From: Knoellia flava TL1
GTDB lineage: Bacteria; Actinomycetota; Actinomycetes; Actinomycetales; Dermatophilaceae
Assembly: GCF_000768675.1 (NCBI RefSeq)
Contig: NZ_AVPI01000004.1
Span: forward strand, 1 to 64,000
Reading direction: 5' to 3'
DNA length: 64,000 nucleotides
In this document: piece by piece, positions 13,538 to 20,157 of the stretch
How positions within the stretch are numbered: the first letter of the stretch is position 1
Layout: each line of letters opens with the position of its first letter
The notes under the pieces: model-generated
The model's database searches: none
The model's input: the letters and a program-made list of their open reading frames with translations, nothing else
What the model was told of the DNA's origin: nothing
Program-made: the position numbers and the translations under genes

Positions 13538-14743
13538 GTGGCCACGACGCGAACGCGCCCCTCGGCGGCGACCCGACGACGGGTCGAGCGCGCAGCCGGC
13601 GATCTGGGCGCCGCCGCCGTCCAGCAGATGGAGAGCTCGCACGAGTGGTACCGCGCGCTCCCGCCCGAGGACCGGTCGTGGGTCGGCCTCGTCGCGCAGG
13701 CCGGCATCCGCTCGTTCATCGAGTGGTTCACCGGCAGCCAGGACCAGGCCCACGTCACCGCCGATGTCTTCGGCACGGCGCCGCGTGAGCTGACCCGCTC
13801 GATCAGCCTCGGCCAGACCCTCGACCTCGTCCGCACCGTCGTCGAGGTCGTCGAGCGCGAGTCGATGGGGCTGGCCGCCGGCGACGACGAGGTCAAGGTC
13901 CGCGAGGCCGTCCTTCTCTACTCGCGCGAGATCGCCTTCTCCGCGGCGGAGGTCTATGCCCACGCCGCCGAGGCGCGTGGCGCGTGGGACGCCCGGCTCG
14001 AGGCGCTCGTCGTCGACGCCGTCATCCGTGGCGAGGCCGACGACTCCATGCAGTCGCGCGCCTCCGCCCTCGGCTGGGGCACGACGAGCGACGTGTGCGT
14101 CATCGTCGGGTCCACCCCGAGCACGGGTGCCGCACAGGTGGTGGACCTGCTCCACCGTGGCGCGAAGCGGGTCGGCGTCGAGGTGCTCGTCGCCATCCAC
14201 GGCCGGCGCGTCGTCTGCATCGCGGGCCGGGTCTCGGACGCGCTCGAGACCGCCTCCCACCTCGGGAGCCACTTCGGTGACGGCCCGATCGTCGTCGGTC
14301 CCGTCGTCCCCCACCTGTATGCCGCGGGGCGCAGCGCGCGGGCCGCGCTCTCGGGCCACACGGCAGCCCCGGCCTGGCCCACCGCGCCCCGGCCGGTGCG
14401 CAGCGACGACCTCCTCGCCGAGCGCGCACTGCTCGGCGACCTGCCGGCCCGGGCCTCGCTCGTCTCGCGGGTCTATGCGCCGCTGTCGGCGAGCGGCGGT
14501 GGCAACCTCCTCGAGACCGCGGCGGCCTACCTCGACGGCGGGCTCGGGCTCGAGGGCACGGCACGCACCCTCTTCGTCCACCCCAACACGGTCCGCTACC
14601 GCCTCGCCAAGATCGCCGACACCATCGGCTACGACCTCACCGACCCGCACGACGCGCAGACCGTGCGGCTCGCCCTCGCCTACGGGCGGGTAGCCCCCGA
14701 GCCCGCGACGCGCGTCACCCGGCCCTCCGCCCGGGCGTTGTAG
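13538..14743 (+). CDS. fasR: PucR-family transcriptional activator of fatty-acid synthesis
   Basis: A 401-residue regulator. The N-terminal half contains EWYRALPPEDRSWVGLVAQAG and SLGQTLDLVRTVVEVVE, as in FasR of Mycobacterium and Streptomyces. The C-terminal PucR helix-turn-helix is LEGTARTLFVHPNTVRYRLAK (about residues 345-365). FasR senses long-chain acyl-CoA and activates the fab operon. Its place directly upstream of fabD, facing the same way, fits. GTG at 13538 has no clear ribosome-binding site; GGCATACAAAT 15-25 bases upstream could supply a -10 box for a near-leaderless mRNA. Confidence 0.92.
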   Translation: MATTRTRPSAATRRRVERAAGDLGAAAVQQMESSHEWYRALPPEDRSWVGLVAQAGIRSFIEWFTGSQDQAHVTADVFGTAPRELTRSISLGQTLDLVRTVVEVVERESMGLAAGDDEVKVREAVLLYSREIAFSAAEVYAHAAEARGAWDARLEALVVDAVIRGEADDSMQSRASALGWGTTSDVCVIVGSTPSTGAAQVVDLLHRGAKRVGVEVLVAIHGRRVVCIAGRVSDALETASHLGSHFGDGPIVVGPVVPHLYAAGRSARAALSGHTAAPAWPTAPRPVRSDDLLAERALLGDLPARASLVSRVYAPLSASGGGNLLETAAAYLDGGLGLEGTARTLFVHPNTVRYRLAKIADTIGYDLTDPHDAQTVRLALAYGRVAPEPATRVTRPSARAL

Positions 14744-14821: not shown

Positions 14822-16000
14822 GTGCTCGTGATCGTCTGCCCTGGACAGGGCTCCCAGACCCCCGGCTTCCTCTCCCCCTGGCTCGCCATCCCCGGCGTGC
14901 GCGAACGGCTCGGCTGGCTCTCGGCCGTCGCCGGCATGGACCTCGTCACGCACGGCACCGAGTCCGACGAGGAGACCATCAAGGACACGGCCGTCGCCCA
15001 GCCGCTCATCGTGGCGTCGGGGCTCGTGTCGCTCCTCGCGCTCTTCGAGCACCCGGCCGACGGCTTCCGCCTCGTCGGCGCGGGCGCCGGGCACTCGGTC
15101 GGTGAGATCACGGCCGCCGCTGCCGGGGGCGTCATCTCCGCCGAGCAGGCCATGGTGTTCGTCCGCGAGCGCGGTCGCGCGATGGCCGAGGCCAGCGCCG
15201 TCACCCCGACCGGCATGAGCGCCGTCATGGGCGGCGACCCCGACGACGTCACCGCGACGATCGAGCGCCACGGACTCACCCCCGCCAACATCAACGGCGC
15301 CGGCCAGGTCGTCGCCGCAGGGACGATGGAGCAGCTCGCGGCCCTCGCCGCCGAGCCGCCCGCCAAGGCCCGGGTCATCCCGCTCAAGGTCGCCGGCGCG
15401 TTCCACACGCAGCACATGGCGCCCGCCGTCGACGTCCTCGCCGGCTACGCCAAGGCGATGTCGACCCACGACGCGCGGGTGCCGCTCGTCTCCAACCGCG
15501 ACGGCGCCGTCGTCCACAGCGGCCGCGAGGTCCTCGGCCGCCTCGTCAGCCAGGTGAGCAACCCGGTGCGCTGGGACCTCACGATGGAGACGTTCAAGGA
15601 GCTCGGCGTCACGGGCATCATCGAGATCCCGCCGGCCGGAACCCTCGCCGGTCTCGCGAAGCGCGTCCTCAAGGACGTCGAGATCCTCGCGCTCAAGAGC
15701 CCGGACGACCTCGAGCAGGCCCACCGCATGGTCAAGGAGCACGGCAAGTCCTCGGGCGTGGCCCAGGACCCGACGTGGCGCCTCGTCATCAGCCCCGCCA
15801 AGGGCATGGTGTCGTTCACCCACAGCGAGGTCGGCACCGCGGTCGAGGCGGGCAGCGTCGTCGCCACCGTCGGCACCCTGCGCGACACCTATGAGGTCGT
15901 CGCCCCGCACGGGGGCCGCGTCGTCGAGTGGCTCGTGGAGGACGGCGACCCCGTCTCCCCCGGCCAGCCCGTCCTCCGCCTGCACCCGCAGGAGGGCTGA
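14822..16000 (+). CDS. fabD: Malonyl-CoA:ACP transacylase with C-terminal biotinyl-like domain
   Basis: Residues 1-310 are a normal FabD, which moves malonyl from CoA to ACP: oxyanion-hole PGQGSQ (residues 7-12), nucleophile Ser92 in GHSVGE, and His195 in GAFHTQHM. The protein then continues for about 80 residues. From residue 319 this tail has the pattern of a biotinyl/lipoyl domain (VISPAKGMVSF...VGTAVEAGSVVATV...YEVVAPHGGRVVEWLVEDGD). Where the modified Lys of EAMKM should be, it has Arg354 (GTLRD), so it should not be modified. GTG at 14822 fits homologues; GTG at 14828 is better spaced from GAAGGGG. The fabH start follows two bases after the stop codon. Confidence 0.93.
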   Translation: MLVIVCPGQGSQTPGFLSPWLAIPGVRERLGWLSAVAGMDLVTHGTESDEETIKDTAVAQPLIVASGLVSLLALFEHPADGFRLVGAGAGHSVGEITAAAAGGVISAEQAMVFVRERGRAMAEASAVTPTGMSAVMGGDPDDVTATIERHGLTPANINGAGQVVAAGTMEQLAALAAEPPAKARVIPLKVAGAFHTQHMAPAVDVLAGYAKAMSTHDARVPLVSNRDGAVVHSGREVLGRLVSQVSNPVRWDLTMETFKELGVTGIIEIPPAGTLAGLAKRVLKDVEILALKSPDDLEQAHRMVKEHGKSSGVAQDPTWRLVISPAKGMVSFTHSEVGTAVEAGSVVATVGTLRDTYEVVAPHGGRVVEWLVEDGDPVSPGQPVLRLHPQEG

Positions 16001-16001
16001 C

Positions 16002-17003
16002 GTGTCCGGCAGCATCACCCCCTCCACGGGGGCGGCCCACGCCCGCATCGTCGGCGTCGGCGCCTACCGTCCGCGCCGCGTCGTGCCGAACTCCGAGATC
16101 GTCGACGCCATCGACTCCTCGGACGAGTGGATCCAGGAGCGCTCGGGCATCAAGACCCGCCACTTCGCCGGTGAGGGCGAGAGCATCATCGACATGTCCG
16201 AGGCCGCCACGCGCGACGCCCTCGACATGGCCGGCATGGAGGCCGGCGAGATCGACGCGGTCGTCCTCGCCACCGTCTCGCACCCCTACCAGACCCCGGC
16301 TGCCGCACCGGCCCTCGCCGACCGCATGGGCATGGGCAAGCCGGTCGCCTTCGACATCTCGGCCGCCTGCGCGGGCTACTGCCACGGCATCGCGATCGCC
16401 AGCGACATGGTCCGCGGTGGCAGCGCCCGCAACGTCGCCGTCATCGGCGTCGAGCGGCTCTCGGACTTCACCAGCCGCACCGACCGCGGGACCGCCTTCA
16501 TCTTCGGTGACGGCGCCGGCTCCGCCATCGTCACCGCGGCGGACTCGCCCGGCATCGGCCCGACCGTTTGGGGCTCCGAGGGCGACAAGTGGGACGTCAT
16601 CGCCCAGAACGAGAGCTGGATCGACGTCCACGAGCAGAAGCTCGACTGGCCGACGATCGGCATGCAGGGCCAGAGCGTCTTCCGCTGGGCCGTCTGGAGC
16701 ATGGCGCCCGTGGCCCAGCAGGCGCTCGACGCCGCGGGGGTCACCGTCGACCAGCTCGACGCCTTCATCCCGCACCAGGCCAACGTCCGCATCATCGACG
16801 CGATGTGCAAGCAGCTCAAGGTGCCCGACCACGTCGCCGTCGCGCGCGACATCGTCGACTCGGCCAACACCTCGGCGGCGTCGGTTCCCCTCGCCACCGA
16901 GCGCCTCCTGCGCGAGGGCCTCGCCCCGCGTGGCGGCCTCGCGCTCCAGATCGGCTTCGGCGCCGGCCTCTCGTATGCCGCGCAGGTCGTGACGCTCCCC
17001 TAG
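16002..17003 (+). CDS. fabH: 3-oxoacyl-ACP synthase III
   Basis: A 333-residue condensing enzyme that starts fatty-acid synthesis from an acyl-CoA and malonyl-ACP. The catalytic triad is visible: Cys123 in SAACAGY, His in PHQANVRI and Asn in SANTSAASVP. The GTG start at 16002 follows one base after the fabD stop and uses GGAGGG inside the end of fabD as its ribosome-binding site. Branched primers would be expected in this lineage, but specificity cannot be read from the sequence. Confidence 0.96.
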   Translation: MSGSITPSTGAAHARIVGVGAYRPRRVVPNSEIVDAIDSSDEWIQERSGIKTRHFAGEGESIIDMSEAATRDALDMAGMEAGEIDAVVLATVSHPYQTPAAAPALADRMGMGKPVAFDISAACAGYCHGIAIASDMVRGGSARNVAVIGVERLSDFTSRTDRGTAFIFGDGAGSAIVTAADSPGIGPTVWGSEGDKWDVIAQNESWIDVHEQKLDWPTIGMQGQSVFRWAVWSMAPVAQQALDAAGVTVDQLDAFIPHQANVRIIDAMCKQLKVPDHVAVARDIVDSANTSAASVPLATERLLREGLAPRGGLALQIGFGAGLSYAAQVVTLP

Positions 17004-17103: not shown

Positions 17104-17352
17104 ATGGCTCAGAGCGAGCAGGAGATCCTCGCGGGTCTCGCGGAGATCGTCAACGAAGAGACCGGCCTCGACCCCGAGAGCGTCCAGAGCGACAAGGCCT
17201 TCACCGACGACCTCGACATCGACTCGCTGTCGATGATGACGATCGTCGTCAACGCCGAGGAGAAGTTCGGCGTGCGCATCCCCGACGACGAGGTCAAGAA
17301 CCTGCGCACCGTCGGCGACGCCGTCTCGTTCATCCAGTCCAACCAGAGCTGA
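17104..17352 (+). CDS. acpP: Acyl carrier protein
   Basis: An 82-residue ACP carrying acyl intermediates on phosphopantetheine. The attachment serine lies in DLDIDSLSMM (about Ser41). It is preceded by a strong site (AAAGGAG, 6 bases before ATG) and a 100-base gap after fabH, so it may be expressed more strongly than its neighbours. A perfect hairpin repeat starts 8 bases after the stop and could help set this stoichiometry. Confidence 0.97.
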   Translation: MAQSEQEILAGLAEIVNEETGLDPESVQSDKAFTDDLDIDSLSMMTIVVNAEEKFGVRIPDDEVKNLRTVGDAVSFIQSNQS

Positions 17353-17360
17353 TCCCCTCT

Positions 17361-17433
17361 CGACCTATTGCGCTTTCGTGCCGGTCCAGGGGCGGTTCAC
17401 CGCCCGCAGGACGCACGAAAGCGCAATAGGTCG
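17361..17433. repeat. Intergenic hairpin repeat, family 1, copy 2
   Basis: Arms 17361-17381 and 17413-17433 form a perfect 21-bp inverted repeat with ends CGACCTATTGC and GCAATAGGTCG. The 31-base loop has its own small hairpin (GGGCGG ttca CCGCCC). It lies 8 bases after acpP and 31 bases before fabF. Likely RNA-level role: partial termination or protection of the acpP message. Confidence 0.8.
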
Positions 17434-17464
17434 GGACCAGTCCCACGCCAAGGAGTCATCGAAC

Positions 17465-18709
17465 ATGAGCACCGAACGTCGCGTCGTCGTCACCGGACTC
17501 GGAGCCACCACACCCCTCGGTGGGACGATCACCGAGACGTGGGACGCCATCCTCGCCGGCACCCCCGGCGCGCGGCCGCTCGCGCAGGACTGGGTCGAGC
17601 AGTACGAGCTCCCCGTCACCTTCGCCGCCACGATCCACACCTCGCCCGAGGAGGTGCTCACCAAGGTCGAGTGCCGCCGGATGGACCCGAGCGCGCAGTA
17701 CGCCATGGTGGCCTCGCGCGAGGCCTGGGCCGACGCAGGAAGCCCCGAGGTCGACCCCGAGCGCTTCATGGTCGCCATCGGCACCGGCATCGGCGGCGTC
17801 CACACCCTCCTGACCCAGTGGGACAACCTGCGGGAAAAGGGCGTTCGACGGGTCTTCCCCCTCGCCGTCCCAATGCTCATGCCCAACACGAGCAGCGGCA
17901 ACGTCTCCCTCGCCCTCGGTGCGCGTGCAGGCGCGCACACCGCGGTGTCGGCGTGCGCGTCCGGCGCCGAGTCGATGGGCCTGGCCGTCGACCAGATCCT
18001 GTCCGGTCGCGCCGACATCGTCATCGCCGGCGGCACCGAGGCCGCCATCCACCCGCTGCCCTTCGCCGGGTTCGCCCAGATGCAGGCTCTCTCGACCCGC
18101 AACGACGACCCGGCCCACGCCTCCCGGCCCTACGACACGGGTCGCGACGGCTTCGTCATGGGTGAGGGTGCGGCCGTCATCGTGCTCGAGTCCGAGGAGC
18201 ACGCCAAGGCGCGCGGTGCCCGGATCTACGCCGAGCTCGCTCCCGCCGGCATGTCCTCGGACGCGCACCACATCACCGCCCCCGAGCCCGAGGGCGCGGG
18301 AGCGTCCCGCGCCATGCGAGAGGCCGTGCAGCGCGCGGGCATCACGCCCGCGGACATCGTCCACATCAACGCCCACGCCACCTCGACCCCCGTCGGCGAC
18401 GTCGCGGAGGCCAACGCCATCCGCCGCGCCTTCGGTGACGCCACCGACGGCATGTGCGTCAGCGGCACGAAGTCGATGACCGGCCACCTCTTGGGTGCCG
18501 CCGGTGCCCTCGAGGCGCTCTTCACGATCCTCTCCGTGCACCACCGGATCGCCCCCGCCACGATCAACATCGAGAACCTCGACCCCGAGATCTCGCTTGA
18601 CGTCGTGCGCGGCGAGCACCGCAAGCTCCCCGAGGGCGACATCGCGGCGCTCAACAACTCGTTCGGCTTCGGTGGCCACAACGTCGCCCTCGCGGTGAAG
18701 AGCCTCTGA
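17465..18709 (+). CDS. fabF: 3-oxoacyl-ACP synthase II (KasA/FabF type)
   Basis: A 414-residue elongating ketosynthase. The Cys-His-His set is present: Cys164 in VSACASG, His in INAHATSTPVGD and His in NSFGFGGHN; the conserved Lys is in GTKSMTGH. ATG at 17465 is chosen because sequence upstream belongs to the hairpin repeat. It overlaps accD by one base. In mycobacteria two such genes (kasA, kasB) occupy this place; here there is one. Confidence 0.96.
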   Translation: MSTERRVVVTGLGATTPLGGTITETWDAILAGTPGARPLAQDWVEQYELPVTFAATIHTSPEEVLTKVECRRMDPSAQYAMVASREAWADAGSPEVDPERFMVAIGTGIGGVHTLLTQWDNLREKGVRRVFPLAVPMLMPNTSSGNVSLALGARAGAHTAVSACASGAESMGLAVDQILSGRADIVIAGGTEAAIHPLPFAGFAQMQALSTRNDDPAHASRPYDTGRDGFVMGEGAAVIVLESEEHAKARGARIYAELAPAGMSSDAHHITAPEPEGAGASRAMREAVQRAGITPADIVHINAHATSTPVGDVAEANAIRRAFGDATDGMCVSGTKSMTGHLLGAAGALEALFTILSVHHRIAPATINIENLDPEISLDVVRGEHRKLPEGDIAALNNSFGFGGHNVALAVKSL

Positions 18710-20157
18710 TGGCGCACCAGCCCAACGAGGCGTCCGCCACCGCGTCGGCCGCCACCAAGCCCAAGCCCGACCGCGCCACGGACCCTCGCAACCCGCGCCT
18801 GCGACTCGCCGCCTTCTTCGACGAGGGCTCGCTCGAGCTCATCACCCCCGAGGACGACTCCGGCATGCTCGCCGCCGTCGGCACTTGCCAGGGCACCCGC
18901 GTCGCCGCCTTCTGCTCCGACGCCACGATCATGGGCGGCGCGATGGGCGTCGCCGGCTGCAAGGTGATCCTCGAGGCCTACGAGCGGGCGCTCGCGGACG
19001 GCATACCGGTCGTCGGCATCTGGCACTCCGGGGGCGCACGCCTTCCCGAGGGTGTCGTGAGCCTGCACGCGGTCGGCGAGGTCTTCGCGATCATGACCCG
19101 CGCGTCCGGCAAGGTCCCGCAGATCTCGGTCGTCATCGGCGCTGCTGCGGGCGGCGCGGCCTACGGACCTGCCCTCACCGACATCGTCGTGCTCGCGCCC
19201 GACGGCCGCATCTTCGTCACCGGCCCCGACGTCGTCCGCTCCGTCACCGGCGAGGCCGTCGACGCGCTGCGCCTCGGCGGCCCCGAGCCGCACGGCCGTC
19301 GCAGCGGCGTCGTCCACGTCGTCACCGAGTCGACCGAGGAGGCCTACGAGCGCGGGCGCCAGCTCTGCTCCCTCCTTGCCGACCAGGGCACGCTCGACGC
19401 GACGGGCATCGAGGACATCGACCTCGAGGAGACCTTCCCCGAGTCGGCCAAGCGCGCCTACGACGTGCACCCCGTCGTCGACAACGTCCTCGACAAGGGT
19501 GCCGACTCCGTCGAGCTGCACCCGCGCTGGGCTCCGAACATCGTCACCCAGCTCGGTCGCTTCGGCGGCCGCACGGTCGGTGTCATCGCCAACAACCCCA
19601 TGCGTCTCGGTGGCTGTCTGGACTCCCCCAGCGCCGAGAAGGCGGCCCGCTTCGTGCGCATGTGCGACGCGTTCGGTGTGCCGCTCATCGTCCTCGTCGA
19701 CGTGCCGGGCTACCTCCCCGGCGTGGGCCAGGAGTGGGACGGGGTCGTGCGCCGTGGCGCCAAGCTGCTCCACGCCTTCGCCGAGGCCACGGTCCCGCGC
19801 GTCACCCTCGTCACCCGCAAGACCTACGGCGGTGCCTACATCGCGATGAACTCGCGCTCGCTCGGGGCGACCAAGGTCTTCGCGTGGCCGACCGCCCACG
19901 TCGCCGTCATGGGCTCGGTCGCCGCGATCCGCATCCTGCACCGCCGCCGGCTCGCCGAGGTCGACGACGCCGAGCGCGCGGCGGTCGAGCAGGAGCTCGC
20001 GGAGGAGCACGACCGCCTCAGTGGCGGCCTGCCCCGTGCCGTGGAGATCGGCGTCGTCGACGAGATCGTCGAGCCGACCGCGACCCGGTCCGCCCTCGCC
20101 AGGGCCATCGCCGAGGCGCCCCAGCGGCGCGGTCAGCACGGCAACATCCCCCTCTAG
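18709..20157 (+). CDS. accD: Acyl-CoA carboxylase beta subunit (AccD6-like)
   Basis: A 482-residue carboxyltransferase subunit that makes malonyl-CoA, giving the fab operon its own extender supply. N- and C-terminal carboxyltransferase lobes are visible: WHSGGARLPEGVVSLHAVGEVFA and GAAAGGAAYGPALTD, then VDVPGYLPGVGQEWDGVVRRGAKLL and RKTYGGAYIAMNSRSLGA. The start ATG overlaps the fabF stop by one base. The biotinylated alpha subunit is not in this window. Position as the last gene of the fab operon matches accD6 of Mycobacterium. Confidence 0.93.
   Translation: MAHQPNEASATASAATKPKPDRATDPRNPRLRLAAFFDEGSLELITPEDDSGMLAAVGTCQGTRVAAFCSDATIMGGAMGVAGCKVILEAYERALADGIPVVGIWHSGGARLPEGVVSLHAVGEVFAIMTRASGKVPQISVVIGAAAGGAAYGPALTDIVVLAPDGRIFVTGPDVVRSVTGEAVDALRLGGPEPHGRRSGVVHVVTESTEEAYERGRQLCSLLADQGTLDATGIEDIDLEETFPESAKRAYDVHPVVDNVLDKGADSVELHPRWAPNIVTQLGRFGGRTVGVIANNPMRLGGCLDSPSAEKAARFVRMCDAFGVPLIVLVDVPGYLPGVGQEWDGVVRRGAKLLHAFAEATVPRVTLVTRKTYGGAYIAMNSRSLGATKVFAWPTAHVAVMGSVAAIRILHRRRLAEVDDAERAAVEQELAEEHDRLSGGLPRAVEIGVVDEIVEPTATRSALARAIAEAPQRRGQHGNIPL

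Follow-up and report, generated by a model that had tools for sequence, protein, structure and literature searches.

The window, the stretch of 64,000 nucleotides of Knoellia flava TL1 that we analysed, carries a fab operon whose fabD gene encodes a transacylase, central to bacterial fatty-acid synthesis, with an additional C-terminal domain. The features of the locus are as follows.

13538..14743, + strand: upstream regulator (FasR-like), from the ORF list
14822..16000, + strand: fabD open reading frame, 392 amino acids, GTG start
14822..15736, + strand: FabD (malonyl-CoA:ACP transacylase) catalytic unit, residues 1-305
15737..15772, + strand: FabD linker, residues 306-317
15773..16000, + strand: lysine-less biotinyl/lipoyl-type (BCCP-like) domain, residues 318-392 and the stop codon
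15881..15883, + strand: codon of Arg354 at the biotinyl-lysine position, from the alignment to 1o78
16002..17003, + strand: fabH, starting 1 nt past the fabD stop
17104..17352, + strand: acpP, acyl carrier protein of 82 amino acids, from the translation
17378..18709, + strand: fabF, from the ORF list and the operon comparison, start approximate
18709..20157, + strand: accD, acyl-CoA carboxylase carboxyltransferase (PF01039, 387.1 bits, 482 residues)

The names FasR-like (13538..14743), FabH, acpP and fabF are putative, and we take accD to be AccD6-like. A homologue of the regulator was found upstream of fabD in most of the class-level loci compared. The original prediction placed an acyl-CoA carboxylase two genes after fabD; accD is in fact the fourth gene past fabD, with fabH, acpP and fabF between them, and the operon in the window ends with it. 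The only carboxylase subunit found at the fab operon is this carboxyltransferase. A strong Shine-Dalgarno-like sequence for fabH (AGGAGGG, 15990-15996) lies within the last codons of the fabD tail. Because fabH starts 1 nt past the fabD stop, the two genes constrain each other's sequence at this junction.

The catalytic unit of FabD contains an acyl-transferase domain with the MCAT fold. Residues Q9, S92, R117, H195 and Q244, whose roles we assume from the Gln, Ser, Arg, His and Gln of E. coli FabD, are all present and were invariant in 67 sequences. FabD scored 172.4 bits against the NCBIfam equivalog model TIGR00128, below its cut-off of 260.9, and tied with the mdcH model (172.7 bits, cut-off 297.9), so that the name FabD rests on the operon and the fold. 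The protein is apparently a normal malonyl-CoA:ACP transacylase with an extra C-terminal domain. The linker between the two parts varies in length and sequence across homologues, and residues 311-320 had a mean pLDDT of only 59 in the full-length AlphaFold model, suggesting that it is probably flexible. The closest known enzymes are the solved FabDs, such as that in PDB 1nm2, presumably from Streptomyces coelicolor; among the best 60 of 109 matches to the tailed-family profile, no solved FabD aligned past position 309.

We set the start of the C-terminal domain at T318 (15773). The codon of W319 lies at 15776, and the span of 15776 to 16000 given for the domain in the original prediction was correct. 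The tail scored 33.2 bits against PF00364 (E 4.7e-8, curated cut-off 22.1), and the corresponding match inside the full-length FabD scored 29.8 bits. AlphaFold predicted a barrel-sandwich fold with high confidence; the full-length model has strands at residues 320-323, 328-332, 346-351, 356-360, 365-370 and 383-388, and the tail modelled alone had a pLDDT of 95.0. The best-ranked matches of the tail were BCCP biotinyl domains. In a sequence search of the PDB, R354, which sits between the strands 346-351 and 356-360, aligned with the lysine of AMKM in the transcarboxylase 1.3S chain (1o78). Thus, a biotinyl/lipoyl-like domain does follow an apparently complete FabD unit, and Arg354 occupies the position of the modified lysine, as had been proposed. 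The tail has the same barrel, two-half hammerhead and modification-site turn as the BCCP biotinyl domains of E. coli (1bdo/4hr7) and Pyrococcus (2d5d; PF00364), and we infer that it derives from a BCCP. It differs from them in that it is fused to FabD, or encoded beside it, rather than being part of a carboxylase, and in that it lacks a modifiable hairpin lysine, for which we took MKM and DK as the motifs of biotinyl and lipoyl carriers. Chance resemblance was ruled out by the PF00364 score, the predicted fold and the recurrence in distant relatives, and an annotation artefact by the tail being in frame with FabD in fused relatives. Five other fused tails were searched against PF00364; that of L075 exceeded the cut-off (31.5 bits), whereas those of L019, L035, L037 and L091 remained below it (17.1-20.6 bits).

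Among 104 distinct fused proteins, the residue at position 354 was Arg in 83, Ala in 3, Gln in 2, and Gly and Ser in 1 each. Lysine occurred in none, nor was an MK motif found at the site in any of them. The remaining 14 proteins, all deep relatives with a shortened hairpin, had a gap at this column. Eighty of the loci had been gathered by matching peptide baits, among them EWLVEDGD, a stretch of the tail that was present in 73 of the 80; the tail rate of these loci and the conservation of this stretch are therefore not evidence. In the 24 distinct fused proteins outside the bait-found loci, position 354 was a gap in 14, Arg in 4, Ala in 3, Gln in 2, Ser in 1 and Lys in none. Given the bait bias, a conserved Arg at 354 is demonstrated mainly for the near group.

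We mapped the fusion at three taxonomic levels. Of 296 genomes sampled across the phylum, 258 had a FabD match and at least 19 a fused tail, indicating that the fusion recurs in distant relatives. A class sample of 197 genomes gave 179 FabD matches; 150 rows were listed and tallied, of which 77 were tailed, 72 tail-less and one ambiguous. In the family sample, FabD was matched in 143 of 149 genomes (54 tailed, 89 tail-less). Among the named genera with a tailed FabD are Knoellia, Janibacter, Ornithinimicrobium, Kytococcus, Jiangella, Nocardioides, Embleya, Catenulispora and Pseudokineococcus. Three further records (L067, L071 and L099), titled Bifidobacterium breve and Rubrivirga, have FabDs 64-67% identical to that of the window; L067 and L099 grouped with Actinomycetota rows in the tree, from which L071 was omitted as a near copy, and all three are probably mislabelled metagenome bins.

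A domain of similar type also exists in a reading frame of its own between fabD and fabH (L118-L125, L127, L195, L196 and L235), suggesting that it is an ancient partner of FabD, present as a fusion in some lineages. These stand-alone domains have no hairpin lysine either, and no lysine-bearing intermediate was found. Of four checked against PF00364, those of L119, L121 and L122 exceeded the cut-off and that of L125 did not. The stand-alone domains scored 23-53 bits against the tail profile, and that of L235 58 bits with a profile including the stand-alone forms. Other biotinyl-type domains reach up to about 49 bits with the tail profile, and because the two ranges overlap, the kinship of the stand-alone forms rests on their position. 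When 20 additional loci from other families in the phylum were examined, only L235 had the domain beside fabD. The arrangement differs in L126 (G240), which has a related biotinyl-like domain on the upstream side of fabD, together with a weak second one that overlaps the region of fabH.

A scan for remnants covered 44 loci, some being repeats of one genome. The 6 tailed loci scored 62-84 bits, whereas no remnant was detected in the 38 tail-less loci, the first three matches listed for each locus scoring at most -0.2 bits. The possibility, raised at the outset, that the tail is random in homologues or was lost by frameshift was thus not borne out, since the tail is non-random where it occurs and no remnant of it was detected in the scanned loci that lack it.

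The presence of the tail was compared with that of accD. In the family sample, an AccD orthologue (at least 73% identity) was present in 51 of the 54 tailed genomes but in none of the 89 tail-less genomes, for which the best matches listed were at most 48% identical. The tailed genomes without a detected orthologue were G316, G378, which is 68% complete, and G364 (L155), whose AccD match was only 46%. The plain contingency p of 1e-35 for this table ignores shared ancestry, and we do not count it as evidence.

In the class sample the association was looser. Of the 77 tailed rows, accD was within 8 kb in 61, elsewhere or on another contig in 5, and absent in 11. In five of these 11, judged by coordinates, accD would run off the contig (G492, G497, G572, G503 and G522); the tail without accD looks genuine in G457, G552 and G610, as it does in G204, one of the 5 with accD elsewhere or on another contig; the other three are G476, G482 and G491. 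A tail without AccD6 was found in Phytoactinopolyspora halophila (L090), in G204 and G610 (L181 and L214) and probably in G552. L090 and L210 (G457) have the same FabD match values and both keep the tail, and a genome-wide search of G457 at E 1e-125 gave no AccD match. In the deep tailed loci L128-L137 and L190-L194, an AccD match was absent from the 4.5-9.2 kb read, and that in L189 was of 27% only. Among the 72 tail-less rows, accD was adjacent in 27, elsewhere in one and absent in 44, so that the association outside the family is one-way at best. A tail-less example is L185 of family f6, which we take to be a mycobacterial-type fab operon with accD6: an AccD6-type gene (62% identity) is also close downstream of fabD, but FabD is untailed and no fabH match was found in the stretch read. 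In family f81, the three genomes read are all tail-less; accD is intact in G485 (L207), has two reported in-frame stops in G451 (L208), and gave no match in G470 (L209). These genomes suggest that the tail may be lost first, with accD decaying stepwise afterwards.

Joint change of tail and accD was tested on trees. On the FabD core tree (141 rows), the tail required 5 changes and accD 8; 3 pairs changed the same way, 1 the opposite way and 1 showed no difference (p 0.625). Since tail loss could bias the FabD tree itself, we used a tree of FabF and FabH, which comprises the 118 of 141 rows for which both of these genes had been read. Twenty of the 23 dropped rows had no accD state; those with both states were L105 (both present), L167 (neither) and L185 (accD without tail), the last being against co-change. 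L195 and L196 were scored as lacking accD since their homologue is only 44-46% identical. On this tree, the tail changed 15 times and accD 16 times. Of 11 independent pairs on supported branches, an average of 8.4 had both changing in the same direction, 1.0 had them changing in opposite directions and 1.6 showed no difference, with a median p of 0.039 (0.0215-0.109). Some added loci had been picked after their tail and accD states were seen, exceptions included. A more careful tree of 47 rows, picked after the 118-row tree was seen, gave 10 tail changes and 9 accD changes; tail and accD agreed in 45 of 46 rows (all but L155), and 4.9 of 5 pairs changed the same way (p 0.0625).

FabF and FabH rejected a single tail-less clade (p 2e-80), which argues that plain linkage through the intervening genes did not carry the joint change. 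Within genus g209, this tree pairs L152, which has both tail and accD, with L165, which has neither, as sisters with 100/100 support. On the FabD core, the tail needs 3 changes in the 47-row set, with tailed and tail-less forms largely separate. Neither g243 (p 0.42) nor g209 (p 0.24) was rejected as a genus grouping by the FabD tree, and the rejection of an Intrasporangium-like set was marginal (p 0.042). We read the discrepancy between the trees as weak resolution or faster change of FabD after tail loss; the switch might alternatively reflect transfer, either of fabD alleles or of both ends of the operon.

Taken together, a BCCP-like barrel attached to a user of malonyl-CoA and lost together with a carboxyltransferase in the family is read most simply as a docking domain. 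The tail may be a BCCP mimic that docks on the AccD6-type acetyl-CoA carboxylase and keeps FabD by the source of malonyl-CoA, a reading that we favour tentatively, as quite possible if short of probable. The docking, the partner surface and the channelling are what we infer; the evidence behind the reading is the family sample and the trees, and the conservation of the EWLVEDGD stretch plays no part in it. The tethered, lysine-less barrel would dock on the carboxyltransferase or on the biotin carboxylase/BCCP subunit, and the docked tail would hold FabD close to where its substrate is made. Where a deep tailed lineage has no AccD6 in the operon, the tail would need another partner, or the carboxylase would be encoded elsewhere. 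The docking to a carboxylase that was originally proposed thus agrees with the way tail and AccD appear and vanish together in the family, whereas outside it there are many exceptions. To our knowledge, direct hand-over of malonyl-CoA from acetyl-CoA carboxylase to FabD is not a settled matter in bacteria. In the excerpted account of PMC4064979, ACCase 6 was reconstituted from AccA3 and AccD6, while ACCase 5 needs AccE5 as well; since AccA3 and AccD6 suffice there, it seems improbable that the tail serves as an essential small subunit.

The same co-occurrence data would also fit if, within acetyl-CoA carboxylase, the tail competed with the true BCCP or helped to assemble it, the malonyl-CoA supply then being set by the level of FabD with no channelling. 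Plant BADC, a lysine-less BCCP relative in acetyl-CoA carboxylase, is a precedent; it has 25-30% identity with BCCP, lacks the AMKL motif, and is described in the excerpt of PMC11926652 as an inhibitor and assembly glue. The FabD tail is, as BADC-type proteins are by definition, a BCCP relative without the biotinylation motif, and we liken the two by description and not by sequence. BADCs, however, are separate plastid polypeptides unlinked to FabD, whereas in tailed genomes the domain is covalently part of FabD, and a pure regulator needs no fusion. We consider such regulation unlikely.

A tail that binds ACP, FabH or FabF rather than the carboxylase would account for the stand-alone versions directly between fabD and fabH, for the presence of fabH and fabF behind tailed fabD wherever enough downstream DNA was read, and for the absence of AccD6 from the operon in the deep tailed lineages. 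Tail-less relatives in the family nevertheless retain fabH and fabF in place while accD is gone, which makes such a scaffold improbable. We think it no better a prospect that the barrel acts within FabD, stabilising it, covering its active site or driving dimerisation. The covalent fusion in 104 distinct proteins and the separation of the tailed and tail-less cores on the FabD tree fit such a role, but the low-confidence linker, the stand-alone forms and the existence of tail-less FabDs at 75-77% identity to that of the window speak against it, and it leaves the co-loss of accD unexplained.

It is very improbable that the tail is a neutral remnant of an old gene fusion retained by chance. It is missing in 89 of 143 family genomes, with no detectable remnant in the loci scanned, and in 11 of 12 comparisons its dN/dS was higher than the core's, by a method that is crude at this G+C content (0.25-0.84 for the tail and 0.24-0.35 for the core against eight more distant relatives). 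Against the four nearest relatives, however, dN/dS was 0.05-0.23 for the tail and 0.05-0.11 for the core; the tail is less constrained than the core, yet constrained in this comparison. Moreover, outside the bait-found loci, all 24 distinct fused proteins retain R320 and P325, and 23 of them retain Q382. That the tail is a decoy for biotin ligase or lipoyl transferase, the competition for BirA or LipB suggested originally, is hardly credible, as fold resemblance alone speaks for it and the 104 fused proteins have neither a lysine nor an MK motif at the site, 14 of them lacking the hairpin residues entirely.

Returning to the docking reading, its wider form is that a dead BCCP mimic on or beside FabD forms a producer-consumer metabolon with the AccD6-type carboxylase where type II fatty-acid synthesis begins, the adaptor being dropped where AccD6 is dropped; we regard this as conceivable but doubtful. 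Among the open-licence PMC papers listed in our searches, none described a tailed FabD, and since PF00364 detects the domain of the window, automatic annotation may well flag it. A recurrent tail that is lost together with one carboxyltransferase in the family is a concrete and testable candidate for an adaptor, and L152 and L165 provide a natural tail-plus and tail-minus pair inside one genus that is usable for testing. The exception formed by L090 and G457 could reveal other functions of the tail. If the docking reading is true, it would extend the non-biotinylated BCCP relatives, such as plant BADC, to bacteria.
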